Shown here: positions 1 to 38,941 of the stretch, piece by piece | Layout of the letters: each line of letters starts with the position of its first letter | Numbering within the stretch: position 1 is the first letter of the stretch | Assembly: GCA_033439295.1 (NCBI GenBank) | Contig: JAVTLE010000013.1 | Coordinates: 1,240,001-1,304,000, forward strand | From: Deuterostichococcus epilithicus | Lineage: Eukaryota > Chlorophyta > Trebouxiophyceae > Prasiolales > Stichococcaceae | DNA length: 64,000 nt | Direction: 5' to 3' | Position numbers and translations under genes: made by a program | Notes under the pieces: generated by a model | The model's input: the letters and a program-made list of their open reading frames with translations, nothing else | Told to the model about the DNA's origin: nothing | Databases searched by the model: none

Positions 1-3000
1 CGGGCGTGCAGCCAAGCGACCGCTTCCTGCAGTGGATGGCGGTCAACTTCGACCTGTCGGTGCTGGACTTCTGGTGCCCGCTGGCCATGGGCTGCGCCGT
101 GGTGGTCGCGCCGGCGGAGGAGATGAAGAGCGTCGAGCGGGTAGCAGCGCTGGTGCAGCAGCACGACATCGCCTCTGTCAGCATTGTGCCGTCCATGTGC
201 CAGGTGTGCTGTTGTACACACCCCAGGCCCAGGTCGTCCACGGGATCACGAAGCGAGCACTTCCAGTGCAGTCTCTGGGTTCCAGCGTCCCTCAGTGCCT
301 CGACAGGCCAGCTTGTGTTGACAGTGTTGGCAGCCTCCCCTTTCGTGCGTGATCGTGTCCTTTCCTCTTCCCTTCCTTTCCCTTTACATCATAATTCTTC
401 ACACGCAGGCGCTGCTGGACGCCTGCGGCGGGCGCGGCCTGCTGACCAGCCTGAAGCACGTCAACTTCGGTGGCGAGGCGGTGCGGCCGGCGGCGGTGGC
501 CGCCATGGTGGCGGCGGCGCCGAATGCTGAGCTGCACGACGCGTGCGCTTCCCAGCCGTTCTTTCTGCTTCTGTCTGTGGTTCTCACAGGCTTGCTGTTC
601 AACACCTGCAGCATCTGCAGCATGCTCAACCTGACTGATCAGTCTTAAGTCCCGGGAGCCTGGCCAGCAGCTGGGCTGAACTGATGGATCCTGGTGTCCA
701 GGTATGGCCCCACGGAGGCCAGCGTCATCACCACCTCCTTCCTGTGCAACGACTACGGCAACGCCGTGTCGGTGCCCATCGGCAGGTACGCACATGCAGG
801 ATCTCGGCCAGCGTGCGCCGCATACGCTGGAAGCTTCTGTACCATGGTGCTGGTCATCACCCACATGCGCCACTTGATGAATCTGCCCCAGGATGATCGC
901 ACCTGCCCTGCTCATGCTTCTCTGACTTTCGACATCCTTGATCACTGCAGGCCGTTCACCAACATGCGCCACTATGTGCTGGACTCCATCACCCTCGCAC
1001 CTGTGCCGATCGGCGTCCCCGGCGAGCTGTTCATCAGCGGCCCCGGTGTCGCGCGCGGCTACATCGGCCGCCCAGAGCTCACCGCGGCGGCCTTCCTGCC
1101 CAACCCATTCCGGCTGCCTGGCGACAGCGACTTCTACGCCCGCATGTACCGCACCGGCGACAACGTCATGTGGCAGCCCAGCGGCATCCAGCGGTGGGTC
1201 CCCATTCTGGCGGCATGCTGCTGAGGCGGTCACCTGCCTGGCGCAAACTGCATTGCCGATCCAGGTGGACGACCTCGTCCTCCTCATGCATACGATTGAG
1301 TCCATAAGTTGCTTGATGCAAGCTTTCGGTATGTTCCACAGGTTCTTCGGCCGTAAGGACGGTCAGGTGCAGCTGCGTGGCTTCCGCGTGGAGCTGGGCG
1401 AGATCGAGGCAATCCTGTCAGCGGCACCAGGCGTGCAGAGCGCCGCGGTCGTGCTGCAAGATGCCGACACTCCCAGCGCCGCGCTGATCGCCTACGTGTC
1501 CCCTGAGGACGCTGACCAGGAGGCCGTACTGGAGGCCTGCCGTGCCAAGCTGCCGCGCTACATGGTCCCGGCTGCGATTTCAATCATGGAGGCGCTACCG
1601 CGTCTTGGCAACGGAAAAGTGAGTGGAAAAGATGTTCTGCTGTGGATGCTGTGGGGCTTCATTGAATTTTGCAGTGCGACAGGTCGACCGAAACAGCCTG
1701 GCGCACCAAGACAGAGTGTCCTCTCGCACCTACTGGCACTTTGCCCGAAACCCGGCCGAGCCTTGCACTGCCTGTCCTGGACAGAGCTCCAACACCCCAG
1801 CGGATCCTCTCGATGCAGGTCGACCGCCGCAGCCTGCCACGCTTCGAGTTCAGCTCTTCGGCTACCTTCGTGGACGCTTCTTCACCGGTCGAGAAAGTGT
1901 TGCAGTCCGCCTGGCGGCAGGTGCTGGTGCTGCCTGAGGAGCAGCCACTCGGGTGAGAGCACGATTCTTGGGTGCACTCATGTTTGAGAGCTCCAGTTGC
2001 AAGTGCATATGTATATGCACCATCACTTCCACATTCGAGCGCTATCTCGGTGTCTGATTTTTGGGTTTTTGCATTCATAGCGGCATGCCGTCGCCGCTGC
2101 TTCACCAGAGGCTGCCTGGGATATTGCCTGCTATCCTGACTTGTGCCGAGCACACGAGGAGCATCCACTGAGCGACTTTCTCCAGCCATTCGACCATCTG
2201 ACCTCCCCTCCGCGCCTGCCGCAGCGTGAACGACAACTGGTTCGAGCTGGGCGGCAACAGCCTGCAAGCCGGCCAGGTGTCCGCGGCAGTGCGCTCCAAG
2301 CTGGGCGTAGACGCCGACATCCCCTCCGTCTGGCTATTCGAGCACCAGACCATCCGCACGCTGGCAGACAAGATCCAGCGCGACGTGCTGGATGTTCTGG
2401 ACGATCCTGACGCGCCGCCGCCGCCGCCGCCGCTGGAGGCCACAGTGTCGATCGCGCTGGCGCAGCTGACCATGCGGGACCGGTTCACCTCTAACCGGGG
2501 CACTGTGCCGCTGTCCTTCCAGCAGGTGACGGCGAAATGCCACAGCTGGACCGCGCTAGGCTTTTTGGTCTGCGAAGACGATCTGTGACAAGCTGAGAAC
2601 CGGTGGTACAAAACCCTGCAGTTGCCGCTGTTGGCATCATTTGCTGAAGAGCTTGCAATGGTTGAGCGAGTTGGCATGCGGGAGCGGGCAGATTGACGTA
2701 GCGCTGCTGTGCCACGAGCAGGAGCAATTTCTGCAGCTCTGGCAGCGGGATAGCTCCAGTGCCGCCTACAATTCGAGCGTGGCCCTGCACCTGCGCGGCG
2801 CGCCCGTCATCAAGGCAATGCGCAACGCCTTCTCCGCCCTCATCAAGCGTCAGATGGTGCGGCTCCAGCCTCAAGACTCTTTCGTATGTGCGGCAGCCGG
2901 AAGGAGTCTTAGCTCGGGTTACGAATCTAATGCTGCACTCTCCAGCTAGTCGTCTCGAGCCTTGGACTGAGCCTGGGACCGAGCTGTGACCCTTCCATTC

Positions 3001-6000
3001 CATTTCTTCTCGAGCACGCAGTGCGCCTGCAGTAGTGCCCTTGCTGCAGGTGACCTTCTTCCTTGTCCCCCAGCCTTTGCTGCCTGTGGCACAGCAGCTG
3101 GTTTCGTTGACTTCTCTCTGTGCTTGGTTCTGTCTGCCGGACTTCTCATCAATCTCATCATGCGCCGCTGCAGATCTTGCGGTGCCAGTTCGTGGCGCCG
3201 ACCGTCGCCGGCGGCAGCGCGGTGCAGCGGCTCCGCGACGAGGTCGACGCCGAGGCCGGCTTCAGCGTCGACGGCATCGCCGGCGGTCGCAACTGCCTGG
3301 CGCCGGCGCCCGACGGCACCGTGTCGGTCGCGCCAAACTCGCCGCTGCACGCGGCCTGGACCGCCGTCCAGAGCAAGCCATTCGACTTGTACAACGAGCC
3401 GCTCACCCGGCTGCGGGTGCGTGCCTGTTGCAAAGACAGTGTTCTTTTGGCCTGAGGAGGGGTCTTGCTATCGTTGGCTCCACCTGCTGAGCTCTGAACA
3501 GCATTCAATCAGCACAGGTACAGCATAAGGTTACCTCCGGTTTCATTCTGCAGTCTGTTTATTTCCTGGCGTACGGGCTTGTCTGCAGGTTTTCCAGTGC
3601 CGCGACATGCTGCTGTCGCCAAAGGCGCCAGTCACCCACTGCACGATCACTGTCCTTTCAGGTGCTGCGGCTGGCGCCGGACGAGCACGTGCTGCTGCTG
3701 GTACAGCACCACGCCATCACGGACGGCTGGTCCCTGGGCGCCTTCCTCGCCGAATTTGCCGCTGCATATAGCGCCTTCCTCGCCGGCGAGGCACCCAAAT
3801 GGGCGCCGATGCCCGTACAATGTGCGAACACACCCCCCTCCTCCTTTCTCTGCGCGCACGCGCGTGCATCTTCGTGTCCATCTTACTGCTCTCGGAATAC
3901 TGCCTCTTGCATGACAGGGTGTGTTGCCCTTGCCAGATCGGTGCTTTTAAAGCAGGACACTATACGCTGATTGAAGTGCCGCTAACACGACCATTAACAT
4001 TATTTCACAGACGTGGACTACGCCGCCTGGCAACGCAACCACCTGGACGGTGACGCCCTCGAGGTGTGTTTCTCATTGCTTGCAGGCCGCTGTCATGCAC
4101 TTGTTGGGGCTCACCGCCAACTGATACAAACAAACTGAAGGTGTCGCGTTGGACGCCGAGCACGTGTCTCACCGCCGCTGAGTGCAACTTGCGCCTCCTT
4201 AACGCAGGCGCAGCTGGAATGGTGGAAGCAGACGCTGGCCGGCGCGCCGCCGCTGCTTGACCTGCCAACGGACAGGCCGCGGCCGGAGGCATTCACGTAC
4301 CGCGGCGCTGAGGTAGGAGAACTTGATCAAGCGAAGATCCACAAAAATGGTATGCTTCTACATTGGACTCGTGACCGGCTGAAATCCCAACTAGCTTTTA
4401 TTGGTTCGAATTTAAAATGCAGGTCAACTTCACCATCGGCGCCGAGACGGCCGCGGGCCTGCGCCGCCTGGCATCATCGCAGCGGACCACCATGTTTGTC
4501 GTCGTCCTGGCGGCCTACAAGGTGACGCTTTGCCCCTGCCCGAAGACATGTATGCTGCATCCTGCTCATCAAGCAGCCTGGTGACACAGTGCGCGGCGCC
4601 TGCCAGCTGTGCCTGGCCTCCCATGAAAATTTGGAACCGGCCAAGTATCGAGGGCTGACCGTCTTGCTTCTCCTGTGCAGCTGCTGCTGGCGCGGTACAG
4701 CCGGCAGGAGGACATTGTGGTGAGCACGCCGCACGGCAACCGCGACCGCGCGGAGCTGCACTCCATCCTGGGCTGCTTCGTCAACACCATCGCGCTGAGG
4801 TGTGGCGTGCCGAGTGCCACCAGACCCTGTCAGACACCCTGAACGTCGCCTGACGCATGTTGGCATCCCCAGGTCGCGCTCTGCAACCCCTGCAGCACAA
4901 CGACGCCTGTCAGAGAGGTTCACCAGCAAAGTTGAGCCACCCAGCTTGGTACCTGTCTGCTCAGAAACGGCTCTGAACGAGTCCGCGGCCCCGCAGGTCC
5001 GACCTGAGCGGTGACCCCACCTTCACGGCGCTGCTGGACCGCGTGAAGCGGTGCACCATGGGCGCCTTTGCGCATGCACAGGCGCCCTTCGCCAAGGTGG
5101 TGGAGGCGCTCAAGGTGCCGCGCTCCGCCAGCTTCACGCCCGTCAGCCAGGTGGGCGCCGCGACACCGATGATGAGCGCGGCCTGCTCGGCCTGTGTCAG
5201 TCGGTTCGCGAGACATGAGACTGGCATCTGGGTTTTTGGGGGGGAGAAGCGGTTTGGGCGGCATTGGATTGTCGCGCCTCCGGATGCCTCCGGATGTCTC
5301 GTTACTATACTAGATACAGTTTGACCATGCGCCAACCGCCAGCTTCACTCCACAGTCATGCTGCCCGGCAGTCAGCTGTAGCATCAGACTCCGTGTCGCT
5401 GCTGTGGCAGGCGCTGCTGACTCTGGAGGACGAGGGACCGGACGCAGGGTCGGGAGGCGGCATGACGGGCCTGACGCTATCTGGCGCGAGCCTGGCGTCT
5501 GGCGCCACCGCCGCCCTCACCGACCTGCTCCTCTCCCTGAAGGCCAAGTGAGGACCCAGCAGTCCTGCCCGTCAGCCTCACTGTTGGGCCGGTCGTGCAG
5601 CCGCTGTGCCTTTTGATATGTCCGGCTCCAGTCTGAGCGTCTGTTCACAACTCAACAGTGCACAACAGCACAGTTTGAAGTTCCTTGGAGTGTCTCTGGA
5701 AGAGGGCAAGCTGCCAGGGAGCCTCGGGCATACAAACTGCTGACCGCCGTGCCGCCGCTGCCGCCGCCGCCGCAGGCACGGCAAGCTGCAGGGGTCGCTG
5801 CTGTACTCGACGGACCTGTTCCGGCGCGGCACCATGCAGCGCATGGCGGGCCACCTGACCACGCTGCTGGCGTCGGTGGTGGCCAGCCCGGACGCGCGCA
5901 TCTCCCGCCTGGAGCTCATGGACCCTGCCGAGCGGGAGCTGGTGCTGCACGGGTTCAACGCCACCGAGGCGCCGTACCCGTCGGACGCCTGCATCCACAC

Positions 6001-9000
6001 CCTGTTTGAGGAGGCCGCCGCCAAGGTGTGGCGCTGCGTCGGACCTGTAGTCCGGCCGTGTGGAAGCCAAAATATCGGCCTTTGCCGATTTGCTCTGGCA
6101 GGGCGCTGTGCCTACCGGGGCTGTTGATGGCACTCGCCGCCTGGAGCAGTGGTCTGTCGGACCCCATCATGGGAGGTCAGGATGTGGCTGGGATTTTCGC
6201 ACGCATCTCGCTCCACGAACAATGATGATCAGGCCTTTCCGCCAACTGACGGTGCCGGCTGCCGCTGCTGCAACAGTCGCCCGGCGCCACGTGCCTGGTG
6301 TGTGGCGGCGAGCGGCTGACCTACGGCGAGGTTGAGGCACGCGCCAACCAGCTGGCGCACTGGCTGCTGGCCAACGGCGTGCTGCCCAACACCGCCGTCG
6401 CCGTCAGCATCGAGAAGCGGCCGGAGCTGTATGTCGCGCTGCTGGCGGTGCTCAAGGCGGGCGGCACCTACGTGCCGGTGGACCCGGGGCTGCCGCCCGA
6501 GCGCGCCGCCTTCATGCTGCGGCAGGCCAACTGCCGCATCCTGCTGACGCACGTGAGGGAGCTGGAAGTCGTCTTGATAGGTTGCATCCACAAGGCTTGA
6601 CAGCCAGTCGTGCCTGGCAGTGTCACCGGGCAGGCAGGTACCATAATGTGTACGTTGACAGCGCTGAGGTGAAGATGTTGACTGCTCCTCGGCAACTAGC
6701 AGTTAACGAATGACTTTACCTCGGCGATGTCGATGTACTCAGCATGGCTAACAGACTGGACAGTCACACGGAGCGGGCATCTGAGCAGGCCGGCATGAAC
6801 CATTCATCCATGCTGTGCTGCTTGACTTGATGTCTGCGACACTACAATGCGACGCAGGCCGACTCGGAGGCGGCACAGCCGCTGGCGAACATGATAACGT
6901 TGCCGCTGAACTCCAGCTGGGCGGCACTGTCTGGCCGCCCCACGACGCCGCCAGGACGCACCTGCCGCCCTTCCGACCTCGCCTACATCTTGTTCACCAG
7001 TGGGAGCACGGGTCAGCCGAAGGGTGCGCGCTGGAAGAGTTTCTGCTGCCTTTTGCGTCCCTCTCGGGTCAAGCTGTGCCTCTTGGCTGTCGTTGCCATA
7101 GCACACAGCGGGCGTTCTCCAGGCGAGACGCTGATGATCGTTCCATAAAAGGGACCAGCACAAGGGCAGTCAGGGCACTGATCGGGCTGACCAGGGGTCA
7201 ACAGCCCCCAGAAACAACCTTTGGTCATGCACAGGCGTCGAGGTGCCTCACGCCGGCGTCGTCAACGTCATATCTGCGTACCGGCGCATCCTGCCCAACC
7301 TGCGGCCCGGCCAAATGTTCGTGCAGTCCATCAGCATCTTCTTCGACCTCAGCGTGATGGTGAGACGCGGCGTCAGCGCAGGCTGCGGCTGCCTTCTGCT
7401 CATGGCAAAGCAATGTCAAGTACGCAGCAGTGCTGCACGACGGTCCTGGGAACAACCAAGAGCTGAGAGCCTGCGGTCGCAAATCGCAGGACCTGTGGTT
7501 CCCGCTGTCAGCCGGCTGCGGCGTGGTCATCCCGCCCGCAGAGGCGAACCGCGACCCCGACGTCATGCGCGCGCTCATCGAGCGCCACCGCATCGTCTTC
7601 CTCATGATGGTCCCCAGCCAGCTGCAGGCGCGCCCCTCCGCCTGAACTGGCAACGCGGCGTTGATCGCCAGAAGCCCGACGCCTGTGCCGCCTTGTCTTG
7701 GGCTCGTGGCCCTGTCAGCATGTGCGGTTCAGCACCCTGCTGAGCAGGGGAGGTGTGGCTGCCCGCAGGTGCTGCTGGACACGTGCAAGGACCCCAGCCA
7801 GCTGGCCAGCCTGACGCACGTCGCGCTGTGCGGCGAGACTCTGAGCCCTGCCACCCTGGCGCTGGCGCAGAAGCTGATGCCGCAGGCCCAGTGCCGCAAC
7901 GCGTACGGCCCCACGGAGGTGGGAAGTCACTTCAGCTGCCGACTGCACATTGTGGAGGCAGTGACCCATGCCTGACCAGTCGCTGGCAGTGCATGAGATG
8001 ACCGCAACTGTGGACATGTGGGACCCGGCGCTTTGTGCTGCGTCCGCTGCTTGCTTGACGGACGTCACCACACAACCTCATGATGCAGTATGCAAGCGCA
8101 AGCCTTGCATCAATGCTGCGCAGGCGACCGTGTTCGTCACCGCCTTCAACTGCGCCAACTTCCAGGCGTCGGCGCGTGCGTTCGTGCCCATCGGCGGGTG
8201 CGTTTTCGTCTCAGATCGTCTTCATCTAATTCAACAAGACTACATCTGCAGTGTGATTCAATCTGACCACGGCTCTTTGCGACCATTCGATGAATGCCGC
8301 GTTTGTTGCAGGCCAATCGCCAATGTGCGGCTGTACATCCTGGACCCGGCGACGCTGCTGCCGGTGCCGATCGGCATCCAGGGCGAGCTGTACGCCAGCG
8401 GCATCTGCCTGGCCACAGGTGTGTTTTCGTTGCTTGCTGCCCTCACGTGAAGTGTGCGTAAGAAATTCGGCTCACCCAACTTGAAGCTGGCACGCCTCAG
8501 GGACATCTCCTGGCCAGTGAGCTTCCGCAGCAGCAGCGGCACAGCCTGCTCACCTCGCTGGCGAGTCGCACCGCCTGCTGCTGGTGCAACTGGACATCTA
8601 CAGTAATGTCTGTTGCCAGCAGGCCATTCACTGATGCTGATGAACCATGCAGGCTACGCCGGCCGGCCGGACCTGACGGCAGAGCGCTTTGTGCGCAACC
8701 CCCACATGCGGCCGGACGACAGCCCGGCGTTTGCTAAGATGTACCGTACCGGCGACCTGGCTGCATGGATGCCCGACGGCAACATCAAGTGTGCCATCGC
8801 CTGGCGTTCTGCACACGGTTTCCTGAGCACGGACATGCCCCTGCTGTACACACGCCTCACCTGCGGCACACCCGGCACGCGGCGTGGTTCTGCAACTGTC
8901 AGTGCCGCAGCTGCGATGCCAGGCTGCTGCCTTGTTGATTTGCAAGGCTGGCTGGCTCGTTGCGACTTCCATGCAAGTGACTTCACAGGCTCGCCTTGCA

Positions 9001-12000
9001 CATCCGTCTGCAAGTACATCTAACCCTATACGAATTGGATGCCAACCCTGCAGGTACATCGGGCGCGCGGACGGGCAGGTCAAGCTGCGCGGCTTCCGGC
9101 TGGAGTTGGAGGAGGTGGAGGCCGTCGTCAGCAGCGTCGCCGGCGTGCAGGACGCTGTCGCCGTGCTGCAGGTGGGGGCGTGCAGAAGAGTGTGTCAGCA
9201 GGGCAGATGCGGAGGGCTGGCCGGCCGCCGCCGCCGCTGTTGCCGCCGCTGCTGCCCGTCCACAGCTGCTGCTCTGCCGACGGTTGCAGCCAAGCTGTGG
9301 GGCCCGGTCGCCAGGCCCGTCCTCTTCTGTGCACTGCAGGATGCGGGCACGGACCAGGCGGCGCTGGTGATGAACGTATCGCGCAACCCAGGCGCCAGCG
9401 TGGACGTGGAGGCGCTGCTGGTCGCGGCGCGCGCCAAGCTGCCGCACTACATGGTGCCCAGCTCCGTGCGGGTGCTGTCGCGCTTTGAGCGCCTGCCCAA
9501 CGGAAAGGTGCCAGAACCCTGTTGCGCTCCCGCTCCTGCTCCCGCTCCCGCTTGCGTTCTGTCTGCGCAGGACAGCACACTGCACAGCAAGGCTTGGCAC
9601 ACCGCCCTGGCATGCCAGTGGCACAGCCCAAGCCAAAACTCCACTAGATGTCTCTCACGATGATGATGCCTGCGTTGTAGGCATCGCCACTGCCGTGGAC
9701 TCTAGCCACAGGCTTCAAGCTGCAGGTTAGACATGTGTGCTGATGCGCCGCAGATCGCGCGCGGGGCGCTGCCGCGGCACTCCATCGAGGACATCGACCT
9801 GACAGAGTACGTGGCGCCCACCAGCCGCATCGAGTCCATCATCCAGGCCGCTTGGGAGGACACCCTTTCGCTCGAGCCCGGCTCCATCGGCACACAGATG
9901 AACTTCTTCGAGGTGCTGGAACCTGCATGTTGACCTGGTGATTCTTCTGGGAAAGCATCACAGAGCTCCTGCTTCGGTCGCGCCCATCAGTGGAGTAGTT
10001 CACCCAGCTTTTTCGAACCTTGTCTCTTTCTGAATCTCCCCTCTGCTGTGAGATATGCACGCTCTTTTGTCCGCTCTGAATCCGAGAGCTAGCCCTGTGC
10101 TGGCCATAGGTCGGCGGCAACAGCCTGCGGGCGGGCGTCGTCGTCTCCAAGATCCGCGAGATGCTCAACGCGCCGGAGATCCCCGGTGAGCAGCCTCAGA
10201 GCTTCAACACCGCTGGCGGTCCCGCTGCCGGATCTGAAACCCACCGCCTTGCCAGCAATGCACTTGCCGGTCCAATAGATTTAGCACAGGGCGGCGAGCC
10301 TGTTCACCCTGGATCCTCTGTGGAAGATGTTGGCTTTTCGGGGATGGGCGCTCATTTCGGCAGGCTGACTGCGCGACAAGCAGAACGTCAATCTATCACA
10401 GCAAAAAGTATATTGTCTCCCCTTTGCCTTCACCGCTGGCTGACTACCCTTCAGGTGCCTGGATCTACGAGTGCCAGACCATCTCCTCGCTGGCCTCCAA
10501 GCTGGCGCTGAGCGGCCTGGTGCCGGAGGACGGTGAGGAGGTCATCCCGCCGCCGGAGCTGCCGCCGCCGCTGGAGCCCACCTGGGCGGTCACCGCGGTG
10601 CAGGGTGCTGCCATCACCGTCTCCTTCGGCTTCGTCGTCTGGTTCATGCTGGCGCTGTCACTGTCGCTGCTGGCGCTGTATGCCTGGTGCGGGTCGTCAG
10701 ATCAATCTCCCGTGTCCCCTGCTGTCTGGTCTTCAGGTCGTGTGTAAGAAAGAGTCTGGTTGTGCGGATGCAGCTGGTTCATGAACGGGTACAGCAGTCG
10801 CTCCGGATGCATGGCAAACGACACTGCCAGATTGCACATTGCTCAAGACTACATCGTGTCGTCTGTGCCCAACGCACCTCCCAGAAGAACTGTCCGCGGA
10901 ACCCTAGACCCTAAAACCGCCGCAGGCACCCGGAGGCGCGCGGCGCATACGTCTTCATGATCGCGCTGCCGGGCGTGTTCTTCGTCCTGCTTGTCGTCCT
11001 GCTGGCGGTCTGCCTCGCCACCAAGTGGCTGCTGATGGGGCGCTACCGCGCGGGCAACTCCCCCCTCTGGGGCTGGCAATACGTCCGCTGGTGGATGGTG
11101 AGTGCTGATGTCAGTGCGTGTTCGAACAGTGTTGTCGCCGCCCAGCTGCAGGATCGAAGCTGCTGAAGCCCCCGCAGGCATCTGTGCTTGAGACCTGCTG
11201 ACATTCCATGCCTCGAAAATGCTCTGGCATACTTTGCTCACCCTCCATCGGCCAGTCACTGTGTGCCGGAATGCTGCTGTGTCTGCAGGTGCGGCTGTTC
11301 ACCAAGATCGCGCTGACGCTGTCCTGCTACCTGCTGACGGAGTCCAGCCTGCTGGTCTACATCTACCGCGCCCTGGGCGCCAAGATCGGCGAGCGCGTCG
11401 TCATCGGCAGCCTGGAGCTGTCGGAGTGGGACCTGCTTGAGATCGGCGACGACTGTGTCATCGAGGTGCGACTGCCGCGGATCCTACTGCTGCTGTGCTG
11501 TGCCATCCAGTCAGGCTGGATCAGTGTATGCCATGATCGTGCAAGCCAGGAGCTCTGGCTGCTCAGCGCCTCCGACTCTCAGTGATGCTGGTCGACAAAC
11601 CCCATGTCTTGAAACCTAACGACGTAGGGTGGCGTGCGGCTTGCGCCGGCGGAGCTCAGCGCGGCCGACGGTGGCGTGCTGTCCATGCGCAAAATTGTCA
11701 TCGGCGCCGGCTCCGTAATCGGACAGGCCGCCTGCATCGCGCCTGGCACGGTGTGCTTCGAGCGCTGGTGCTACTGCTCGAGTTATTCGTCACGGTTCTG
11801 GCTCCTGTGAAGATGAGCCCGCAGCATTGCGGCATCAATCAGTGGCCCTCAAAAGTGCCAGAAATAGCCCGAATGCATTGACTGTCCGTTGCTGGCCTGC
11901 TGCAGGTCTTGGAGCCGGGATCGATCGTGCAGCCGCACGCAGCGGTGCCGCAGCATGGCCCGGGCGTGCTGTCCGTCGCCGATATGCCCAACGTGCCACG

Positions 12001-15000
12001 CGACGCCCAGGGCCACAAGCTGAGCAGGTGAGGGCTCTTCATGTGCACATGGTGGAGGTTCAGTCGATGGGTCACTTGATGGCCATCAAGCATGTAGCTG
12101 CTGCGAAAAATGAGGGCTGAGCCTGATCGGGCGTAAGATCTTGGCCTCATTGCGATGCTCTGACACCGTCCGCACCTGCGCATCCACTGACCACGGCCGA
12201 CGTCTTTTCGAAACTAAACCCTGTCTCTTTCGCGCAGGGCGCTGCCGGTGTGGCAAACGCTGGTCAGCGTCTTCGTGGCGGCCTACTCCCAGCTGGCCAT
12301 CATTGGCGCCAGCATCATGTTCACGACCTTCATCTTCGGCCTGATTTTCAACCACTCGGTGGCGGCGGCGGACCAGGCGGACACCTCCCTCGTCATCGAC
12401 ATCTACCTGCACACCTGCCTGCTCAACACCAGCTGGGACGCCACCCGGGTACGGTTGCTGCACTCCTCCAGAGTGTAAATTGTTGAGGCTGGCATCTACA
12501 GTCAATGTCGGGTAGTGATTGTTGATGGCATGGTCGGACGGAGGGGTGGCTGAAAGGGAGCAGGAGGGCCTGGGCTCTGAAAGACGTGCCGATGCGTCAT
12601 ACATGCTGGCTGGCTGTGCTTGCCCTTCACGTGCTGGAATAAATGGTATTAGTAGTATTGAAACGGTGTCGCTGCCGTCCGCAGTACCGCCTCTGCTCCA
12701 TCATTGACGTGTCCATCATCAAGACCATCTGCCTGAGCGTGGTCCTCTTCACCGTCGTCCTGGCCTTCGTGCCGCGCCTGGTGCTTCTGCTCGCCAAGGT
12801 GAGGGCTGGACTCTTTGACCTCGCATCTCAGCCGCAGTGCAATGCACAAGCTCGCGAGTGCTGCCAGACTGGCACCATCCTGATGGCATGCACGAGATGA
12901 CCTGAACGTTGCAGACTCCTTGTCAGCAGCCCTCGCTCGCCCTTGATCTGCATCGTCCCTGCAACGAAGTCACCGTGTGGTCACGTTCCTGGCGCCGTGT
13001 GCCCCTGCAGTGGGTGTTGCTCGGCCGAGTGCCGGCGGATCCCAGGGAGGCGCGCAAGCGCTGGCTTTGGCAGCTGCGCACGCACATCTTTAGCCACATC
13101 TCTGCCAGCCCGCTCAACGGCTACAGCGGCATGCTGTGGGGTGTGCACGTCCCCCTCCTGCGGCCATGTGGCATGATGGCAAGGCCGGCAGGTCGACACT
13201 CTGCATCCATTGTGCCGGGAAGCGGCAGCATGGTGCCCGCAGAGCTCTGCAAACTTCTGAAAATGCTCAGGGGGAAGCAATGCGCTTCAAAGCAGTTGTG
13301 ATTTGCTTCCTGCAGCAAGTCTGTGCTTGCTTTGACCTTGCACAATGTTCCCGCAGACGGCACGATCGTGGTCAGCTGGTACTATCGGGCTATGGGAGCC
13401 ACAGTTGGAAGCGACACCTGGCTCCCTGCCGACCTTGAAGTCGCAAACTACGACGCGCTCGTCATCGGCGATGGCGTCACCATTGGAGGCGCCTGCGCCG
13501 CTGGCGCATCGTTCCTGCCGCCCGCCGGCATGGCGGTGAGTGCCGCCTCGGCAAAGCATCATTACCGCATGCATCTGAGCGTGCTCGCTAGCCTCTGAAC
13601 CCCTCGATGTTGACGGCGTCTGCACGCTGGCGTGTCACAACATCCTCGTTCGAGAAGATGGTGAACTGGCTTCTGCAAACGGCTCAGTCGTTCTGTATGG
13701 CTGCATCAAGATGGACGCATTGTAGCAAGCCAGTTGTCTGGTGCATCTCTAAGAGTCAAATCCTGTTCATCAAGCTGCACAGACTTGACGTCAAGGGCCA
13801 CTTCGTTACCCAGAATACTGCTGGGGCTTCAACCTTGGGTGCCTGGCTCCAGGCATGTGACCTCCTGTGCAGCTGAACCCAAGGAGAGGTTGAGCCTCCA
13901 TCGCACTGAGCACTGCTGAACCTTACATGATCGCCAAAGCGCATCCCTGCCGCAGGACATATACGAGGAGACGCTGGAACTGGCGGCGTACTCGGACGGG
14001 TGGCCGCCGCATGCGGTGGTCATTGAGGACGGAGTGCACCTGGGGCACGCGGTGCTGGTGTGCTCGGGCTCCCGCATCCGCCGCGGCGCCATCGTGGGCG
14101 ACATGACCATGGCGGCGCCCGACCGCAAGTTCCCGGCGCATTCCGTCACGCAGGTGCGTGGCGGCGCCCCGGTCTGGCTTTGCTGTTGCAGCACAGGAAC
14201 CTGGTGGGGGGTAGCAGTCCCCATCCCCCGCCCCGCGGGGGGCCGCAGCAGTATTGTTATCAACCAACACAGAGGGCATCTACGGAGAAACGGTGCTCGC
14301 TGACTTGAAACCCTGCTGCAACCAGGCGCTGCAACCAGGGCATTGTAGTCCTGGCGTTAGTCCTGGGTGTGCTGGCCTTGCCATCTCCTCTCTGAGGGTA
14401 CTTGAGAAGGCTGATGACCGGATGTGTATTGTGGCGCCTGCAGGGCACGCTGCGGCTGCAGGAGGGCGAGGTGGAGGGCAACGAGGAGGCGCTGCCGATG
14501 GAGGCGGCCGCCGCGGCGCGCCGCGCCAGCGTGCAGGCCATGCGCAGCGCCAGCATCTTCCGCAATGGCAGCGCCGACTCCGCGGCGTATAGCTCCTACA
14601 GCGCCGGGCCGCTGCGTGAGATCAGCCCGGAGCACGGCCGCCGAGGCAGCCTGCGGCAGCCCAGCCCCGAGGGCGGCGCCGGCCGGGGCAGCGGCCGAGA
14701 GGGCAGCGTGCACGAGGGCAGCGGCCGCGCGAACGCGGGCTACACCGGCGGCTTCGTCAGCAGCGGCACAACCGTCACCATTCCGCGGCGGCAGGCGGCG
14801 CCGCCAACGCCCTTCGAGGTGGGGCCCTGGCTGGGAGCAGCCTCGTGTTTTTGGCGTGAAGGGGCGTCTGCTGGCAGTCCGCATGAGCGAGCTGAAGGGT
14901 GTAAGATGGCTTGGTGGTGACTGCCAGATGCGACGGTGGTGCATACACTGCAGCACTGCAAGGCTAGGTCTAGAGCTGACTGTGAAGCATCTCCTCGGCT

Positions 15001-18000
15001 GCAGCTCGCTGCGCGGCAGGGCTTCGGAAGGCAGGGCGCCAGCGCCGACGACCGGCCGAGGTCGCAGCGCACCCTGCTGTCGACCATCAATGCCGGCGGC
15101 AACCAGGGCAGCGGCGGATCCTTCGCGCAGAACAGCAGCGGCTATGCCCGCGGCAGTGGCAACAGCTACGGTATGTGATGTCAAACTTCAGACTTCGCAC
15201 CTGCGCGCTGCTGGAAAATGCAGCCCCTGACAGTGTTCGACCTCTTGCCGGCACGTTCGCACCCTTACTGTCCAGACGATGCTTGTCTCGTGCCAGCCGG
15301 TTGCACAGGGTCTGTGAGGCTGGCATGTCGAGCCTTCGTCCTGTCGGGTCCCAACTAGCCGATCGGCTCACCCCCCTGCCCCCCTGCCGCCCTGCTGCAG
15401 GCGGCAGCGGCGACCTTGATGCTCTGATGCCTGGCAGCCCGCTGGGGCAGCGCCGCGTCAGCTTCGGCGTCGACCCGCCGCAGCGCAGCAGCCTGGGCCC
15501 TCGCCCGCGCAGCGGCAACCTGGACTCTGGACTCCCCACACTGCACCACATGGGGCGCCGCCGCAGCAGCGGCCTGGACGGCCACTGGCAAGGTGACTGT
15601 CCATCCCTGTGCCTTGCGCACTCCATAGAAGTTGTGTTCAGGGACCCTGCAGTGGCCGGAGCGGTGGCCCTTTCTGGTGCCGCAATGAAAGCTCGACACC
15701 CAGGCGCAATGCAGATTCGCCGAATATATCTTATCAACAGCCTCGAGTCAGCTATCGATCGACTGACGTGCTGCGCGCGCTGCTGACGGCGCAGCCGGGG
15801 CGACGGCGCGCCGCATCAGCGGCATGGAGGGCTTTGGCGCCCCCTCGGCGCGCCGCGCCAGCGGCTTGGACGGGCCCCTGGGACTCTACGAACGGGCTTC
15901 GGGCCTGGGAGTCTTCGAGCGGGCCTCGGGCCGCTCGTCGAGCGGCCTGGGCACGCCGCGCGGCAGCGGCTTCGGCGGCGTGCACCGCCCGAGCGGCGTG
16001 CGCCGTGCCAGCGGCCTCGACGGTCCGCTGGCTCACTACGAGAGGTGGGTGGCAGCTTCACTGTTCTGTTCCATGCTCATTCCATGCGCCGTCTGTTGCC
16101 AGCTTGCAGGAGTGAGTGTTTCCTGACCGCGCTGCGCCTGTCGACGACACGACTGTGGGGCGACATGCCCTCTTGTGCCTTGGTCACAACAGGGAGCTGC
16201 TCCGCCATTCCGGCCAGCTCTCGGGCAGGATTTACATCACCCACCCAGCCCCCACCCCCTCCTCCCCACACCTGCATCGTCCGCGTCCGCAGGGCAATGG
16301 GCGGCCCGCTGGGCACGCCGCGGGCGAGCGGCCTCGGCGACCGGCGGGTGAGCGGTCTCGGCAACCGGCGGGTGAGCGGTCTCGGCAGCAGGCAGCCGAG
16401 CGGCTCGCTGGCCAACATCCTGCCGCCCATCGCTGGCGGCCTCACCGAGCAGGAGCTGCCCACCCTGGCCGGCACCTGGTGGACGTGTTGGGGGTGCGCC
16501 GCCTCCAGTGCTTTCACTGCATTGTGTCTGTAAGTGATGCGCCGTGTTTGCAAGCGACGTGTGGCTGCATATGCATTTGATGGCTGCTCAATGCACCTGG
16601 ATGTCAAGCTGGCGAACTCTGTCGGCCGACACCATCATCCCATGCTCTGTGTCTCGAGAGGCCGATGAAGCAGAGACAGTCGACACGCTGTCACAAAAGC
16701 TGAGCTGCGGCCCGCTGTGCACCTGCAGGCACTCGGTCGTCCTGGTACTGCTGCGTGCAGGCGAGTGCCCTTTGAGCTTGCGAATGGACCGCCGTGCCTG
16801 CTGTCTTGTTCCAGATGGTTATGCAGTGCTAGTGCCTCTCGTCAGCTTGGGGGAACAGAGGCCTTGCCACCTGAAGAGCTGTTCCCGCTGACCCCGCCGC
16901 TCCCGACTGCGCAGTGCTCATGCCGATGACCATGATCTTCACCATGTTCCCCTTCCTTCTTGGCGTCCTTTGCGTCATGATCGTTGGTGGCCCCTACATT
17001 CCGGCCGCCTCCTTCCTCGTCACCGTGCCGATCGCGCTGGTGCGCGTTGATGTTGGCATTGCCTAACCATGTTCGCTTCTGCTTGACTGCCACTGCCACA
17101 GGCAGCAACCCGTATTCCCCGATCTCACCATCTCCTTGCAACCTGTACCCTGCACAGACGCCGTAGCCAGCACTTCAGCCCTTGCCGTATCTGCGACATG
17201 TGTTTGCGTCGCAGCTGCTGAACACGGCGTACCTGGCGGCCATCACGCGCGTCGTGGGCTACTTCCTGCGCGACAGCGTGCCCTTCTACTCCGCCCGCTT
17301 CATGGTGAGAGGGCGGGAGATGGACACAGCGCCACTGCAAATCTCCAATGCCACCGTGCCGACATGCCGCCTGCATGCGCGACACCTGAGATGGAGCTCC
17401 GCTGGACCAGCATTGCGGTACCATAGGGCCGCCTCATCGGGGCTGCAGGAGCTCTGCTGCGCGGGCGATGCGGGCGCGCAGCGCTGCATCAGGGAGGCCG
17501 AGGTCCGCTGGGGCTTGAAACCCAACATCCTGCCGCCGCAGGTGTGGGAGCTGGCGTCGACCATTGGCAGCCTGGCAGACGCGGGGCTGCTGTCGCTGCT
17601 GGATGGCACCCTCTTCTGCGTCTGGAAGATGCGCGCCCTGGGCACCCGCGTCGGCCGCGGCGCCTGCATCCTGGGCGGCGCCCGGTGCCTCCCTAATCCC
17701 TTGAAAACCTTTTCTGCATCTGCCCTGCCTGCCGCACCCTTCCTGCTGTTCGAGACCGGTGCCTGGCCTACCGCTCCTGACCAGACTGTTTGCAGCGCTG
17801 CTTCCCCACACATGCGGAAGTGAGGGGTCTGAGCATCACTGCTCGTGTCCTGCCACCCGTTTGTTTGTGGATGCAACAGCCGCCCCTGCCCTCGGCCCGC
17901 TTCCCGCCACCGCCTGACGCTGCCCTCTGTCCGCGGCACAGGGTGGAGACGACGGCGCTGACCATCGGCGAGGGCGCAGTCATCTCGGAGGGCGTGCTGC

Positions 18001-18752
18001 TGCAGGGCCACACCGTGGAGCGGCTGGCTGCCACCTTCCTGCCCACAGAGATCGGCGCGCAGGTCACGCTGCAGCCGTACTGCAACCTGCTGCCCGGCTC
18101 CGCCGCCAGGGACGGCGCCATCGTCACCTCCCTGTCCGTCGTCATGAAGGTGCCCCAGTCCCCATCATCTTACCCCTTGCTGCCCTGTTGGTTCACCCTT
18201 TCAATGCCCTCCCTGTCCGTCGTCAATAAGGTCCCCAGTCCCCATTGTTCAAAACGCGCTCTCGGTTTACCCTCTCGATGCCGCTCTCCTCGCATGCTTG
18301 GTCAATGTCTCGAGCACCGTCCTGCATTTGTGCACTGACCTTACATCGAGGTGGAGGGCGACCACTGCGCCGTGCTGGCATGCGCAGTGCTGCGCGGCTG
18401 TTAGGAGGTCCTGAGGGGACCGGCTCGTCCTGATGCCCATCCGCACTGAGAGCACCGCACGTGACCACGCCTGCAGGGCGAGGTGGTGGGCGAGGGCCAC
18501 GTGTGGACGGGCTGCCCGGCCAAGCCGCTAGGGCATCGCGAGGCGGCGGACTTCCGCCGCGCCATTGACGAAAACTGGTGGTGCCGCCGCCCGTCGAGCA
18601 GCGACGGCGACGCCGACCACATCGAGATCGACATGCAGCGGGAGCTGGAGCTCACGCGGCCACTGGCGCCCAGCGACTCGGGCGGCCTGCCGCCGACCCC
18701 CGGGCGGCGGCCGTCCATTGAGCCGCTGTCGCTGCCGCCGGGCCTGGTCTGA
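1..18752 (+). CDS. Multimodular nonribosomal peptide synthetase, A-T-C-A-T plus polylysine-synthetase-like membrane terminus (5' partial)
   Basis: About 40 exons encode roughly 2,700 residues here; the start lies before base 1. Visible order: adenylation domain 1 from core A4 (FDLSVLDFW, ~40-75), A5 YGPTEA (~703), A7 YRTGDN (~1147), A8 (~1340-1400), A10 (~1606); carrier domain 1 with LGGNSL (~2248); condensation domain 2500-5950 with the active-site motif HHAITDGWS (~3707) and NTIALR (~4780); adenylation domain 2 with [11 protein letters not shown] (~6993), FDLSVM (~7342), YGPTE (~7904), YRTGDL (~8743), NGK (~9500); carrier domain 2 with FFE/VGGNSL split by an intron (9902/10110); then the membrane terminus (10455-18752). 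Known for the family: A domains adenylate an amino acid, load it on the carrier phosphopantetheine, and C joins two units. No thioesterase or reductase is visible. Exons keep frame and splice sites look normal, so the gene looks functional. The stop is TGA at 18750-18752. Identification as an NRPS is near certain; the product is unknown. Confidence 0.94.
14444..16478 (+). repeat. Ser/Gly/Arg linker with repeated R-R-x-S-G-L motifs inside the NRPS
   Basis: Five exons between terminal units 2 and 3 of the NRPS encode about 390 residues of low-complexity sequence with no hydrophobic stretch. The motif [RE]R-x-S-G-[LM] recurs: RRSSGLD (~15560), RRISGME (~15810), [11 protein letters not shown] (~15850), ERASGLGVF (~15893), [11 protein letters not shown] (~16006), [16 protein letters not shown] and RRVSGLGS (16318-16385). 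Nearby RRASVQ, RRGSLR and RRVSFG share the R-R-x-S core. RRxS is the textbook site for basophilic kinases (PKA/CaMK type), so the loop could be a phosphorylation hub; that is inference. The last three copies are near-identical at DNA level in 24-base steps, which points to recent tandem expansion. Confidence 0.75.
18127..18290 (+). repeat. Local duplication of an NRPS exon end with its 5' splice site
   Basis: The last bases of the exon ending SLSVVMK and its donor (18129-18166) recur almost unchanged at 18210-18246, inside the following intron. The copy again places a GT after an AAG codon. A further flank (18190-18214) is echoed at 18264-18289. Spacing is about 74-81 bases, so this is a short imperfect tandem duplication that created a second possible donor. 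Confidence 0.7.
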
Positions 18753-20269: not shown

Positions 20270-23200
20270 TCAATCGCAAGCGGCCGCGGCGGCCGACAGC
20301 TGCTGCTCCAGGTCTGTGATCCTCAGGCGCAGGTTGGCGCCGCGGTCCGGCAGCCGCGCCACCACCGCCGCATTGCCAAGCAGTGCCCGATTGCGAGCCA
20401 ACTGCTGCTGCAGCGCCAGCTGCATTTTTCTGCAACAGGGAACACAGTGGTGTCGACCATCCGCAGTCGCACTGTGGCAGGGCTGCCAGGGTCTCATATG
20501 TGTTGTAGCAGGAGAGTGCTACAAACTTTACTGTGTGTGGGCGTGTGTGCGGGGGAAGGGGGTTGGTGGGACGTCGGCACAGCGCAATGGGGATGTTGGC
20601 ACATCCAATTATGGCAGACGCCGCAAACCTGTCGTCGTCTGGGCTGTGTACTTCAGTGCCCGAGGGCGACGCACTGCCCGGGTCCGCAGCTCCCAGCTTG
20701 AGCGTGCTCGCCAGCATGTCGCTGAGCTGGCTGGTGCCGCTCCACCCTGTAGCACAGTCCATACTGTCGTGACAAGCACGAGGATGGCGATGCTTGAAGC
20801 AGCGGGCCTCGGGACGCACAGGCAGATCTGCGCATCGGCCCGGGCAGGCGCTGTACCGCCGGCTGCACCCCATCCTCTGAGCACGAGGGCTGGCGCGGCG
20901 AGGAGTAACAGGATGCGAGGGGAGCTGTTCGGTTGCAATGCAGCACTGCCTGGCAGCCGTCCTTAGGACATCGGGTCAACAACGGCCGGACCCTACATGT
21001 GCAAGCCTTGTCTTGAAGGTTTCTGAAGGTGGCCCATACCTGCAGCAGAGCGGTGTGCCGGCGCCCCGGGGGGCGGCAGCTGCGCCTGGGACTGCCGCCG
21101 CACCCACGGCTTGGCCTGCTGCTGGCCGGCCACAGCGTCTGCTGCTGCCGCTGCTGCTGCTGCTGCCCCTGCTGGGGTCGCCGCGCCGCCCTCCTCTCCG
21201 GGCCGTGTGAACAGCAGGTCGTGGTCGCTGACGCCTGAGCGACGCGATGCCTCGAGGAGTGAGATGCATCCCACCAGGGAGCTGGACATTGCGAGGTCAC
21301 CACCAAGAAGCAACCGCTTTCGTCAGCAGTAAGCTGAGCACGAGATCCAGACTTGTCAAGTCTGCGTGCCTACAACCAGCTCAAGAGCATTCGAGCCGGT
21401 TCTACCCACACCAGAGTGCTCGCAATGCGGGCACCATGCAGGCAGGCATTACGGCGCATCTACGCACACACGCAGCAACTACAGCGACCTCCCTACAATA
21501 GTATGTCGAGGACAGGCAAGAAGCGCACCGACGTAGTTGGGCATGGCGGCCAGCGCCGCGAGGTGCGCCTCCAGCTGGGGCGAGGTCCGCCGCTGGGCCG
21601 CGTGCCGCGCCGCCAGGTCCGCCTGCGTGGAGCTGCGGCCCACCTCCTCCGGTTTGAGGCTGAAAAGGTCGCGCAGCTCCTGTCAGAGACGAAGGTGAGG
21701 GTTTTCGTATTGAGGTTTGAGGTTTCAAGGATTCTGCATTCCAGAGGCAAAGCAGGCTGAACAGGGGTCGCAGCTCCTGCAGGGGCTGCGGGGCAGATTC
21801 TCGCTGAGGAGGGTCCTTGTTTTGAGGAAGAAGGGTTGCACGTGCAGGCCGCCCCGGGACCGCCCAGGTTCAGGTTCAGTTCAGGTCCAGCCCCCGTCCT
21901 TCAGTGCCGCAGCCGCATCAAGCTTAAAAGAGTCAGCAGACGTGCCATGTTGGGAGTCCCTTCTCTGCGCCCGTGCCGTGCCAGGTGACTAGGGACTGGC
22001 AGCGGGGTTACCGTACATGTCATCATGGAGATACTCAACAGAATTGAGATACACACAACGGGTTTAAGATGCAGGCGCACCACATAGCTGAAGTAGCGCA
22101 GCTGCTCCTCGTCGCGGGTGCCGGCGCGGCTGAGGCCGCCCTTAAACACCTGCCGCCTGTATATCTTCTCCTCCACGCTGCCGCACGTGATCAGGCGGTA
22201 GACCACCACGTCCCTGCAATGTGAGATTGAGCTTACTTTGCAAGAGCTAGTAGCTAATCGACACTTGCATCGGCACTTGCATCGGCACTTCCATCTTTGA
22301 TCTCGGAAGAAAGGCCTGAGACTCTGCCACAGCAAGCTTTTGCTGCACATGAGACTAGTAAGGGTTGCCATGCAGGCGTCGTTCAGACGAGCTGAAGCCG
22401 CCTCGAAAGCGGCCTTGGCGCATGGACGTTCATGTCAGGATGCATGGGAAGGTTGCGATCTGCGGCTTCACGTCAGGCCCCTCAGGTAGACAGGGCGGGG
22501 CAGGGGCGCTCGGACTTGCCATGCAAGCCCCATGCTGCAGATGCATTTGGGCATTCAATATTGATGCACGAACAGACCGACACCAGAAGATGGTACCTGG
22601 TTTGGCCGATGCGGTAGGCACGGTCGACGCTCTGGTTGTCGGACGCCGGGTTCCAGGAAGGATCCACCTGAGGGGAAAGCGGGCAGGCGTGTGCATCAGC
22701 TTCAGTACGACTGAGCCCGAAGGCTGCCGCATTTTCAGGTCAGACTCCAATTGCAGGGTTGTGGCAAAAAGAAGGGGTGCGGCAGGCCTGAAATCCTAAA
22801 GCCTACAGGCGCACCAAGATGACGCGGTCGGCCGCCGTCAGCGTCAGGCCCAGGCCACCGACCTGCGACGTCAGCAGGCAGATGGGGATGCCGGCGTCCG
22901 TCTGGAAGCGGCGCACCAGCTCCTGCGGGGGCCACCCTTCGCATCACGTCAGCCAGCAGTAGCACAGCAAGCGGGGGATACTAAGTCCAACAATTGGACT
23001 TAGTACCCCCTGCAGCAAGCAAGTGGATTGTTCGGCAACATGTCGTTGGCGGAACACCGTAGCCAGCACTTGTCATTTTCCCCAGTCCAGTGCCGGAGTT
23101 CGATTCGTGGCGTTTCATCAGCTGCTTCTCGCTGGTGACGTGCGGGACTGCTGCAGCGCAGGCCTTGAGGAAGTCAAGTTCCGAGATGGAATAGGAAAGA

Positions 23201-34800: not shown

Positions 34801-36472
34801 CACCTGGCGACGGCGCTGGCAGCACGCAGCCGTCCTGCAGGCCGTGCCCGCCTCCCAGATCGCTGGCCGTGCCGCCGCAAAGGGCATACTCCAGATGGGG
34901 CGGGCCTGTGGCAGCAGCATATCAAGCCATCGCTTGCAGTCTCAAATAGTCAGCGTGTCATGCCGGTCCGGACAGTTACCTCTCCTGCTCACCCTCGGCA
35001 CTCGAAAGCCACGAGACAAGTGATGCCAAATTCACTCACCCCGCACTTCCCACAGCGGCGCATGAAGCAGCAGCCAGCCCGCCGCCGTGACCAACAGCAG
35101 GTGTTGGCCATCAGCTGCGAAGCTCGCCGCAAGCAAAGGGCCCCGCAGCAGCTGTGCGGCGGCACCCTGGGCGCGCACTGCCTCCCCTGCGCAGCAACGT
35201 CACCATGTCAACTGGATGCATGGGAAGCACAGCATGTTGCTGCGAGCTAGCTGTCCATCACATCCGGCCAGTCCCACAGCTACAATTGAAGTTGGTCAGG
35301 CCAGCACCTGAACCGATGCCAGCTTGCACAGGAAGTACCTCTCACCTGCGCTGATCGCGTGCTGCAGTCGTGAGGCAGGCTCGCGGCAGGCGTCTCCCGG
35401 CACCGAGCCGCCCCGGGCGACATCTGGCAAGAATGTGAGCATGTCACCAGCGTCGGTCACACCGACAACCACCGCCTGGCCGTCAGCCGCGACCAGCAGC
35501 TTGGCGGCCAGCAGCTGCGGCGCCGCTGAGTCTGACGCTGCCCAGCGCTCGGCGTCTGCGCATCAGGAGTTGCGGAACAAGCCGTCAGCCTTGCCAAGCC
35601 GGAGTTTCGGATCGAATGACCAGCTCATCTCAACGTGCGTTCTGGACGACTGCAGCACTGGTTGCTGCAGCGCACTCTTAATGCTAACCCAATATTCCTG
35701 ATCTGGCCGATGCCGCCCACCTGCATGCCAAAACTTCTGCAGTGACAGCAGCGACGCAGGCGACGTAACGTCCGCCACCTCCAGCGTCCGAAGGTCGAGT
35801 ACGGCAACGCCTTGGCACTCCACAGCGCGGCTGACGGAGCCACCGCCGTCTGACGACCGGGTCGCCAGCAGGCACGGCAGCGCGGCATGGGAGCCGCCCG
35901 GTAGCATGAGCGCATGGCGACTGCTGGACCGCAGCGCCGAGCCCTGCACCGTCAGCTGCGCCGTGCGGAGCAGCGTGCCATGCGCTTCGTGCCACAGGCA
36001 TGCGCGGCCGCCGCTGTCGACGGTGAGCATGGCTGCATCCCGCCCAGCGCCTGCAGTGCACCAGCACATCACCAAGACCTTCACAGTGGCCGCGAACTGC
36101 CACGGCCTCGCAACATCGAGGAATCAACTCGCTCACACACCTGGCGGGCAGCCCAGAATGGTCTGCACCCGGGCAGCATGGCCACATGCAACAAGCTGGC
36201 TGCAGTCATCGCTGTTGCTGCCGTTGTGCTGCTCCGAGTCCCACTGAAGCCTGCAGGGTATCACGCAAATTATCAAAACATGTGAAGGCACGCATGGCAT
36301 GGAATTGTTACTGTTGTGTTGCCGTGCTGGCAATGAGCAGTCACCTGCACAATCTGCCGCTGCCGCCAGCAACCCAGATCGATGAGCCTGTTGTGCGAGA
36401 GGACGTCAGAACATTGCAACTGTCGATTGAGTCTGCTCTGGCACTCCAGACACTTTGAGTTAGGCACTTCAT
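28858..36472 (-). CDS. WDR7: WDR7 / rabconnectin-3 beta-like WD40-HEAT protein
   Basis: The start is the ATG at 36472, giving MKCLTQSVWS, which resembles the plant WDR7-like N-terminus and leads into the first WD blade (IWVAGGSGRLC, RLQWDSE, VACGHAARVQTIL) across an intron. Later exons give GRACLWHEAHGTLLRT (~36010), AEDGTLQAWDMSHGG (~33655), SCGADGAVCIVSLMSGTC (~33515), TAWDARRGYMTCLS (~33280) and AVVWDLHSG (~33225), typical of the N-terminal propeller. Helical HEAT-like segments follow (ALAFLHCWGLDAATDGRL, ~32655; MREAARALLAAS, ~31610). The C-terminal propeller shows ALLLAVGTPPLQ (~29620), LYDMQSGAPKF (~29470) and LRVWSLDL (~29255). The last exon ends at the TAA 28858-28860. Known: WDR7 pairs with DMXL (rabconnectin-3 alpha) and promotes V-ATPase assembly on acidic membranes. 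Its 5' end faces RPS3. Family call is good; several middle exons are uncertain. Confidence 0.85.

Positions 36473-38941
<2,469 letters not shown>

Follow-up and report, generated by a model that had tools for sequence, protein, structure and literature searches.

A predicted 17-module nonribosomal peptide synthetase gene with a Pls/PosA-related membrane terminus in a green-algal genome

What would a green alga make with a peptide assembly line whose last part is a membrane domain akin to the one in epsilon-poly-L-lysine synthetase (Pls), and how would it have come by such a line? The question is raised by a 64,000-nucleotide stretch (the window; C11:1240001-1304000, in which C11 is a 3.08-Mb contig of a 46.8-Mb genome in 21 contigs), the first part of which belongs to a nonribosomal peptide synthetase (NRPS) gene. 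The original prediction took the gene for an intron-containing two-module NRPS of bacterial style, ending in a polylysine-synthetase-type terminus. The analysis described here makes it probable that the locus is a single nuclear 17-module NRPS in which a Pls/PosA-like membrane terminus replaces the thioesterase, and that the line has grown by module duplication accompanied by exchange of adenylation cassettes.

The extent of the gene was established by adding C11:1120001-1240000 upstream of the window and applying a small purpose-written gene finder trained on exons of condensation (C) domains; one splice end was corrected by hand and the model was then refined with a profile built from the modules of the gene itself. 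The predicted gene occupies C11:1151172-1258752 on the forward strand, 107,581 bp in 253 exons that encode 20,044 amino acids (aa; ~2.14 MDa) with no internal stops, two of the codons containing ambiguous bases. Its 252 introns are 57-443 nt long and have 231 GT and 21 GC donors, and the acceptor is GCAG in 194 of the 252. The 5′ end lies 88.8 kb upstream of the window and is uncertain, the first module-like match standing at 1151250 and the profile of the gene's own modules finding none between 1149000 and 1151250, while the stop codon falls at window position 18752, just as predicted originally.

The domain order is T-(C-A-T)x17 followed by the terminal domain, A and T being adenylation and thiolation (carrier) domains. 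First, the Pfam Condensation profile has 46 exon-level matches in the whole genome (58 of 58 candidates scored), all of them on the forward strand of C11:1152910-1245941, and these cover 17 C domains by position, with C motifs spaced 5.0-6.3 kb apart; the window thus holds only a part of module 16, module 17 and the end of the gene, and the two modules seen originally are the last of 17. Next, the 18 genome matches to TIGR01733 (amino-acid adenylation), obtained with 12 of 84 candidates scored, are all inside the gene. The motifs C3, A3, A5, A7, A8, A10 and T are present in 17 of 17 modules, with C3 reading HHxxxDG in 16 of the C domains and HPAAADG in the first (C1). Finally, of the three stretches submitted to Pfam, the N-terminus was recognised as T and C, and modules 8 and 17 each as C, A, the A C-terminal domain and T, spliced module 17 matching Condensation at 4.1e-83, AMP-binding at 5.1e-85 and PP-binding at 3.3e-9. 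The modules are spaced too closely for each to accommodate a second Condensation-family domain. An apparently absent A3 motif in module 17 was a splice-site error of the first model and was corrected by hand, and the other module motifs missing from that model were recovered by the guided one. The modular part of the gene within the window is as follows.

1..18752, + strand: 3′ part of the one predicted NRPS gene (50 of 253 exons, the first exon cut by the window edge)
3..1851, + strand: module 16 adenylation domain, the part in the window, interrupted by introns (code DLLINGAVIK)
1861..2375, + strand: module 16 thiolation (carrier) domain (WFELGGNSL)
2484..5959, + strand: module 17 condensation domain (HHAITDG; PF00668, 4.1e-83)
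5978..9783, + strand: module 17 adenylation domain (A3 SGSTGQPKG; code DLMMACAVFK; PF00501, 5.1e-85)
9805..10504, + strand: module 17 thiolation domain (FFEVGGNSL)

It is quite unlikely that the 107-kb stretch should instead be read as two or more polypeptides acting together. The unconstrained gene finder did score a split path (12459) above the one-gene path (12441, the latter under heavy start/stop penalties), but the split, at 1192942/1193032, falls in the core motif of carrier domain 7, an ordinary 220-bp intron bridges the two halves and the longest intron anywhere in the model is only 443 nt; the split is therefore treated here as a probable artefact of the gene finder. We infer that the gene gives one transcript and one predicted polypeptide.

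Beyond the last carrier domain follows the segment that gives the locus its unusual character, a terminal domain with about six predicted helices and the parts listed here.

10547..18749, + strand: homologue of the Pls/PosA NRPS terminal domain (TIGR02353 at E 4e-48; 164.3 bits against a cut-off of 423.1)
10589..11019, + strand: first transmembrane (TM) pair, from hydropathy only (Kyte-Doolittle windows)
11038..11076, + strand: GRYRxGxxPLWGW signature of the first unit (sequence motif)
11373..11968, + strand: first hexapeptide / left-handed beta-helix unit (TIGR02353, 2.8e-10, one exon frame)
12254..12792, + strand: second TM pair, from hydropathy only
13446..14153, + strand: second hexapeptide unit, weak (on its own no better than E 0.014, to other hexapeptide families)
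14444..16434, + strand: predicted 375-aa Gly/Ser/Arg-rich insert (10 RRxS motifs; shuffled mean 0.7)
16730..17244, + strand: third TM pair, from hydropathy only
17638..18530, + strand: third hexapeptide unit, with the Q.H of bacterial domains kept (TIGR02353, 3.8e-5, one exon frame)

The succession of A, T and C core motifs and three TM-pair/hexapeptide units is therefore found where it was first described, with Pfam matching module 17 and TIGR02353 matching the end; the GRYRxGxxPLWGW signature, claimed for all three units, is present once, in the first, and only in degenerate form in the other two. The protein searches reported here cover proteins of bounded length that share exact 5-residue words. 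Against 5.77 billion proteins, the terminus without its insert gave 134 matches at E ≤0.001 among 8000 scored candidates, the best at 5.6e-45. Among the 120 matches listed, the best local alignment spans 88-99% of the domain in 15, at 22-26% identity, and the matches named by organism are mostly bacterial, with two from plants and two from fungi, in addition to one unnamed EukProt entry. A tree of terminal domains placed the algal one with the proteins P0036 and P0057 (Shimodaira-Hasegawa-like approximate likelihood-ratio test, SH-aLRT, 96), on a very long branch and with a long-branch warning; that sister grouping was lost under a mixture model on 35 rows, and across the two trees the nearest kin of the algal terminus appear to have no stable placement. 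A second terminal-domain gene, considered on contig C14 from a weak match, was rejected, its open frame reading by eye like a serine-acetyltransferase-type hexapeptide protein.

The insert in the terminal domain appears to be a genuine part of the gene, as its five exons have positive coding scores and dropping it would require an intron several-fold the length of all the rest. Its ten RRxS motifs compare with a mean of 0.7 and a maximum of 4 in 2000 shuffles and with three in the preceding 19,362 aa; part of the insert is a tandem repeat, however, so that the ten are not independent. The motifs are of a basophilic-kinase-like kind, and Ser-rich stretches near the insert position are also seen by eye in P0036 and P0057.

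How the line attained its length is written in its introns. Inside the 17 modules, 211 of 231 introns have a position (within one alignment column) and phase common to another module, against 54 on average and 73 at most under random placement (300 trials); 13 sites are common to nine or more modules, with none at random, and four are common to all 17. A model made without module guidance, other than the one hand-corrected splice end, gives 206 of 230 shared introns and 13 sites, so the sharing is not produced by the guidance. In quick trees, which used 88 of 289 available rows for A domains and 71 of 189 for C domains, the algal domains group as a single clade each time: the 17 A domains against 71 others (52 NRPS and 19 Pls-type; SH-aLRT 100), and the 17 C domains against 54 others that were sampled (SH-aLRT 100). 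The shared introns together with the single A clade and the single C clade suggest that the line grew from one intron-bearing module in the alga's own lineage, and growth by duplication of such a module is well supported.

The opposite history, a bacterial multimodular NRPS taken up whole with introns gained later, or simple contamination, is extremely improbable. The organism-named module matches among the 120 listed of 3225 are indeed bacterial, with 32-39% identity; the modules, though, share introns by position and phase and form a clade apart from the sampled bacterial ones, and the four neighbouring genes scanned are of eukaryotic type and lie on the same 3.08-Mb contig. The gene is nuclear and is not bacterial contamination, splicing being evident in it, and the notion of a bacterial gene gives way to one whose modules multiplied after the introns were present. 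That it belongs to a green alga, as first proposed, is upheld by the genome, since this contains chlorophyll-binding genes, a preponderance of GCAG acceptors, which are typical of chlorophytes, and giant ketosynthase loci. The chlorophyll-binding family has 39 exon matches, none on C11, and a PDB comparison made for one exon gave chlorophyll a/b-binding proteins, of which some are presumably algal. The ketosynthase loci are long exon series at C19:2755304-2841234 and C7:2826596-2890034, probably giant type I polyketide synthase (PKS) genes like those reported from chlorophytes.

Duplication alone does not describe the modules, as the A and C trees are in conflict. Module 5 groups with module 4 by its A domain (SH-aLRT 100) and with 9/13 by its C domain (100), module 15 with module 2 (97) and with 10/14 (99), and module 3 with 8/11/12 (100) and with 4/16 (89), respectively. 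At the DNA level, 10 of the 17 blocks found are 2.0-2.9 kb long and 86-96% identical, introns included. Six blocks were examined; they begin 39-60 aa ahead of the C-A junction, and their ends range from A5 to 79 aa past the start of the T motif. Comparable recombination is reported for bacterial NRPS genes in the available text of PMC8097286. The pattern is seen in modules 9, 10, 13 and 14 (C11:1201370-1230591, upstream of the window), which have near-identical A cassettes and diverged C domains, the cassettes being 93-94% identical over ~2.39 kb in the three pairs among modules 9, 10 and 13 and 86-91% identical to that of 14. In seven module pairs the synonymous divergence (dS) is 0.07-0.16 for A compared with 0.54-0.77 for C. 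Among 13 pairs chosen from the 136 possible, the ratio of nonsynonymous to synonymous divergence (dN/dS) of A domains is 0.14-0.29 in nine and 0.32-0.63 in four more diverged ones. As read from these alignments, A cassettes have evidently been converted or swapped between modules, after the duplications, with the protein under constraint.

What the line would make can be approached from the A-domain pockets. The ten pocket positions were placed by motif anchoring in what we take to be the GrsA numbering. There are eight distinct codes among the 17 domains: DLLTNGVVFK (monomer type X) in modules 3, 8, 11 and 12, DLLINGAVIK (Y) in modules 4, 5 and 16, DGMIAGCVMK (Z) in modules 6, 9, 10, 13 and 14, and five single codes in modules 1, 2, 7, 15 and 17. 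On the numbering assumed, the first code residue is Asp and the last Lys in 17 of 17, as for binding of an alpha-amino acid, and Asp or Glu occurs at code positions 2-9 in none of the 17. Because no pocket has an acidic residue at these positions, a mostly non-polar peptide is likely, as opposed to a cationic polymer; the likely product is a mostly non-polar linear peptide of ~17 residues with recurring monomers. As C1 lacks the second His of its motif, the leading T0-C1 may be a remnant and the chain probably starts at A1.

In the proposed mechanism, each of the 17 A domains would load one alpha-amino acid, mostly non-polar, and the C domains that keep HHxxxDG, 16 in all, would join the residues from A1 onward into a linear peptide of ~17 residues in which X, Y and Z recur. 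The last carrier would pass the peptide to the terminal domain, which would stand in for a thioesterase, either transferring the chain to a nucleophile or releasing it at the membrane. Synthesis of a peptide at a membrane, already foreseen in the original prediction, is the natural reading of an NRPS with a Pls-related membrane terminus, and a role in chain release would be the corresponding function of that end. The other half of the forecast, an amino-acid polymer of the polylysine kind, fares less well. The terminus would then polymerise as in Pls/PosA, with whole peptides or the last residue joined repeatedly into a polymer or a homopolymer-tailed peptide, which is improbable. The homology of the domain and the 15 nearly full-length alignments described above speak for it, as does the statement in the available text of PMC10522769 that the A and carrier domains of Pls alone yield no polymer. 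However, among the best 80 of at least 572 bacterial loci with the terminus (mostly Alphaproteobacteria, with flanks that reach up to 10 kb on either side and are often shorter; the search covers close relatives of ten query proteins), an A domain is found in 80 of 80 and a canonical C domain in none, compared with 17 C domains here. Likewise, the four Pls/PosA-type codes printed in PMC10522769 have Glu at position 3, and 0 of 17 algal pockets share this acidic residue.

Several points weigh against a single 17-module line with a functional Pls/PosA-like end. The gene model was built in this analysis, and its exon ends and 5′ end may be wrong; the first unconstrained model did split the gene once; and the repeated blocks and few N in the assembly mean that the module count may also be wrong. 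The specificity codes, dependent on motif anchoring and the assumed numbering, match none known to us, and T0 keeps the Ser of GGDSL, so that a loaded starter is possible. The second hexapeptide unit by itself is weakly recognised, with no match to TIGR02353. The algal terminus scores far under the curated TIGR02353 cut-off of 423.1 (164.3 bits), together with P0036 (196.6), P0057 (204.5) and the plant P0084 (193.8), whereas the EukProt P0070 (537.9) and the fungal P0095 (565.8) are above it. Similarly, at 62 conserved columns defined from 22 relatives treated as bacterial (several unnamed), the alga keeps 34 (~4 expected by composition) and P0036 and P0057 32 each, compared with 58 in P0070 and 57 in P0095. 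The lower count and the sub-threshold score make the activity of the algal terminus uncertain. By its motifs and profile match the domain is nonetheless evidently real, though strongly diverged, and on the same grounds it is a relative and not a member of Pls/PosA, so that the polylysine-synthetase label given to it originally survives as homology only.

It is accordingly conceivable, though somewhat unlikely, that the terminal domain does no more than anchor the enzyme in the membrane, or has decayed to a remnant, and that a thioesterase acting in trans releases the peptide. The 34 of 62 columns and the very long branch would agree with decay, and Thioesterase matches do exist in the genome; the NRPS gene itself has no match to Thioesterase (PF00975). 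Yet TM pairs and hexapeptide units are still present, the third unit retains its Q.H, and the Thioesterase matches in the genome are only two (9 of 9 candidates scored), at C19:2848912 and C19:2851841, both beside the PKS locus, 8-11 kb past its ketosynthase exon series. A terminus acting in place of a thioesterase is the reading preferred here. A wider proposal can be put forward only tentatively, namely that a eukaryotic NRPS grew from one to 17 modules in the green-algal lineage with its A cassettes exchanged, and that a Pls-related membrane domain became a new chain-termination or transfer step, perhaps controlled by phosphorylation through the RRxS insert, delivering a non-polar peptide of ~17 residues at the membrane.

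Other proteins show related arrangements. P0070 (EukProt, 1646 aa) has A-T and a Pls/PosA terminus above the cut-off and is a eukaryotic, homopolymer-synthetase-like protein. The legume proteins P0084 (2356 aa) and P0089 (2367 aa) have amine-oxidase-like, fatty acyl-AMP ligase (FAAL)-like and carrier domains, P0084 also matching the Pls-type terminus, and P0085 has A, carrier and hexapeptide repeats with a fused HGSNAT-type acetyltransferase domain (PF07786).

As for the surroundings, the four flanking genes scanned are Tim44, an alpha/beta hydrolase and a protein kinase upstream and an SNF2-type helicase downstream. The last is the next well-scoring model after the NRPS and convergent with it, predicted at window 20270-27683 on the reverse strand (PF00176, 2.6e-52; PF00271, 4.7e-21); a 1919-aa protein with Cys-rich EGF-like stretches, seen by eye only, is predicted at window 31200-47033 on the reverse strand. 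No tailoring cluster was recognised among the neighbours scanned, which are a part of those around the gene. The genome search gave no match for MbtH, one phosphopantetheinyl transferase-type match (PF01648, C13:805015) and 46 ketosynthase matches, none on C11 and none in the NRPS gene.

Among known systems, the general logic of the line is familiar. The best PDB match of A domain 8 is the linear gramicidin synthetase LgrA (E 1.2e-149, summed over two A domains), which has the same multimodular C-A-T logic. LgrA is bacterial, and the full gramicidin system includes formylation and epimerisation domains and a reductase end, its product being mostly non-polar; in contrast to the epimerisation domains there, the algal module spacing excludes a second Condensation-family domain. 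The architecture as a whole seems to stand apart. No account of it was found in searches of an open-access library, and the available parts of PMC6262359 and PMC6652019 contain nothing closer. No other multimodular NRPS with a Pls-like terminus was found in the protein search or the bacterial-locus search, neither of which extends to other algal genomes; among proteins of ~2,235-7,112 aa, one of 1757 scored candidates matched the terminus and was the plant fusion also found in the terminus search. Among the matches listed in the three word-based protein searches of bounded-length proteins, no algal relatives were recognised by name.

Algal NRPSs are reported to be rare and small in the available text of PMC4661987 and PMC7073580, in line with the original remark that no characterised algal example was known. 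The largest one named in that text of a 32-species survey is from Bigelowiella, with 490 kDa, 10 domains and three C domains (those of Symbiodinium uncounted), and the NRPSs of Chlorella variabilis and Coccomyxa have one C domain each (PMC4661987); Table 1 of PMC7073580 gives counts of 0-3 in the green algae it includes. The present gene is likewise from a eukaryotic alga and has 17 C domains and ~2.14 MDa against the maximum of three C domains counted (PMC4661987), and a 17-module NRPS would raise the known green-algal capacity and is a target for product discovery. Closer in size is the fungal peptaibol synthetase Tex1, as described in the accessible part of PMC11610996, a eukaryotic single-gene NRPS of 18 modules and ~62.8 kb that also makes a long linear peptide; Tex1 starts with a PKS module, whereas the algal gene starts with a lone T and spans 107.6 kb. 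The 252 introns and the Pls-like membrane end are stated for the alga alone, the introns and release domain of Tex1 lying outside the comparison. Since introns mark each of its modules, the gene also preserves in legible form the lengthening of an assembly line and the swapping of its A domains, processes central to enzyme engineering.

The replacement of a thioesterase has a parallel in Coccomyxa subellipsoidea, likened here by description only, where the type I fatty-acid synthase (FAS-I) proteins end in an NRPS terminal domain instead of a thioesterase, according to the text seen of PMC3446292; both are green-algal megasynthases, with fatty-acid synthase domains there and C-A-T modules here. 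Finally, PosA and its homologues occur in bacteria, fungi, archaea and some other eukaryotes, and they share with the alga a post-carrier terminus with TM pairs and hexapeptide units, as far as described in the available text of PMC10522769. Unlike the alga, they are of the form A-T-terminus with Glu at position 3 of the printed codes, while the algal protein has 17 C-A-T modules, non-acidic pockets, an insert and a terminus below the family cut-off. The algal gene therefore lets one ask what a Pls-type terminus does when the substrate handed to it is a complete peptide and not one diamino acid, and its predicted product is, to judge from the domains, a true modular NRPS whose end is homologous to Pls/PosA and lies outside that family.

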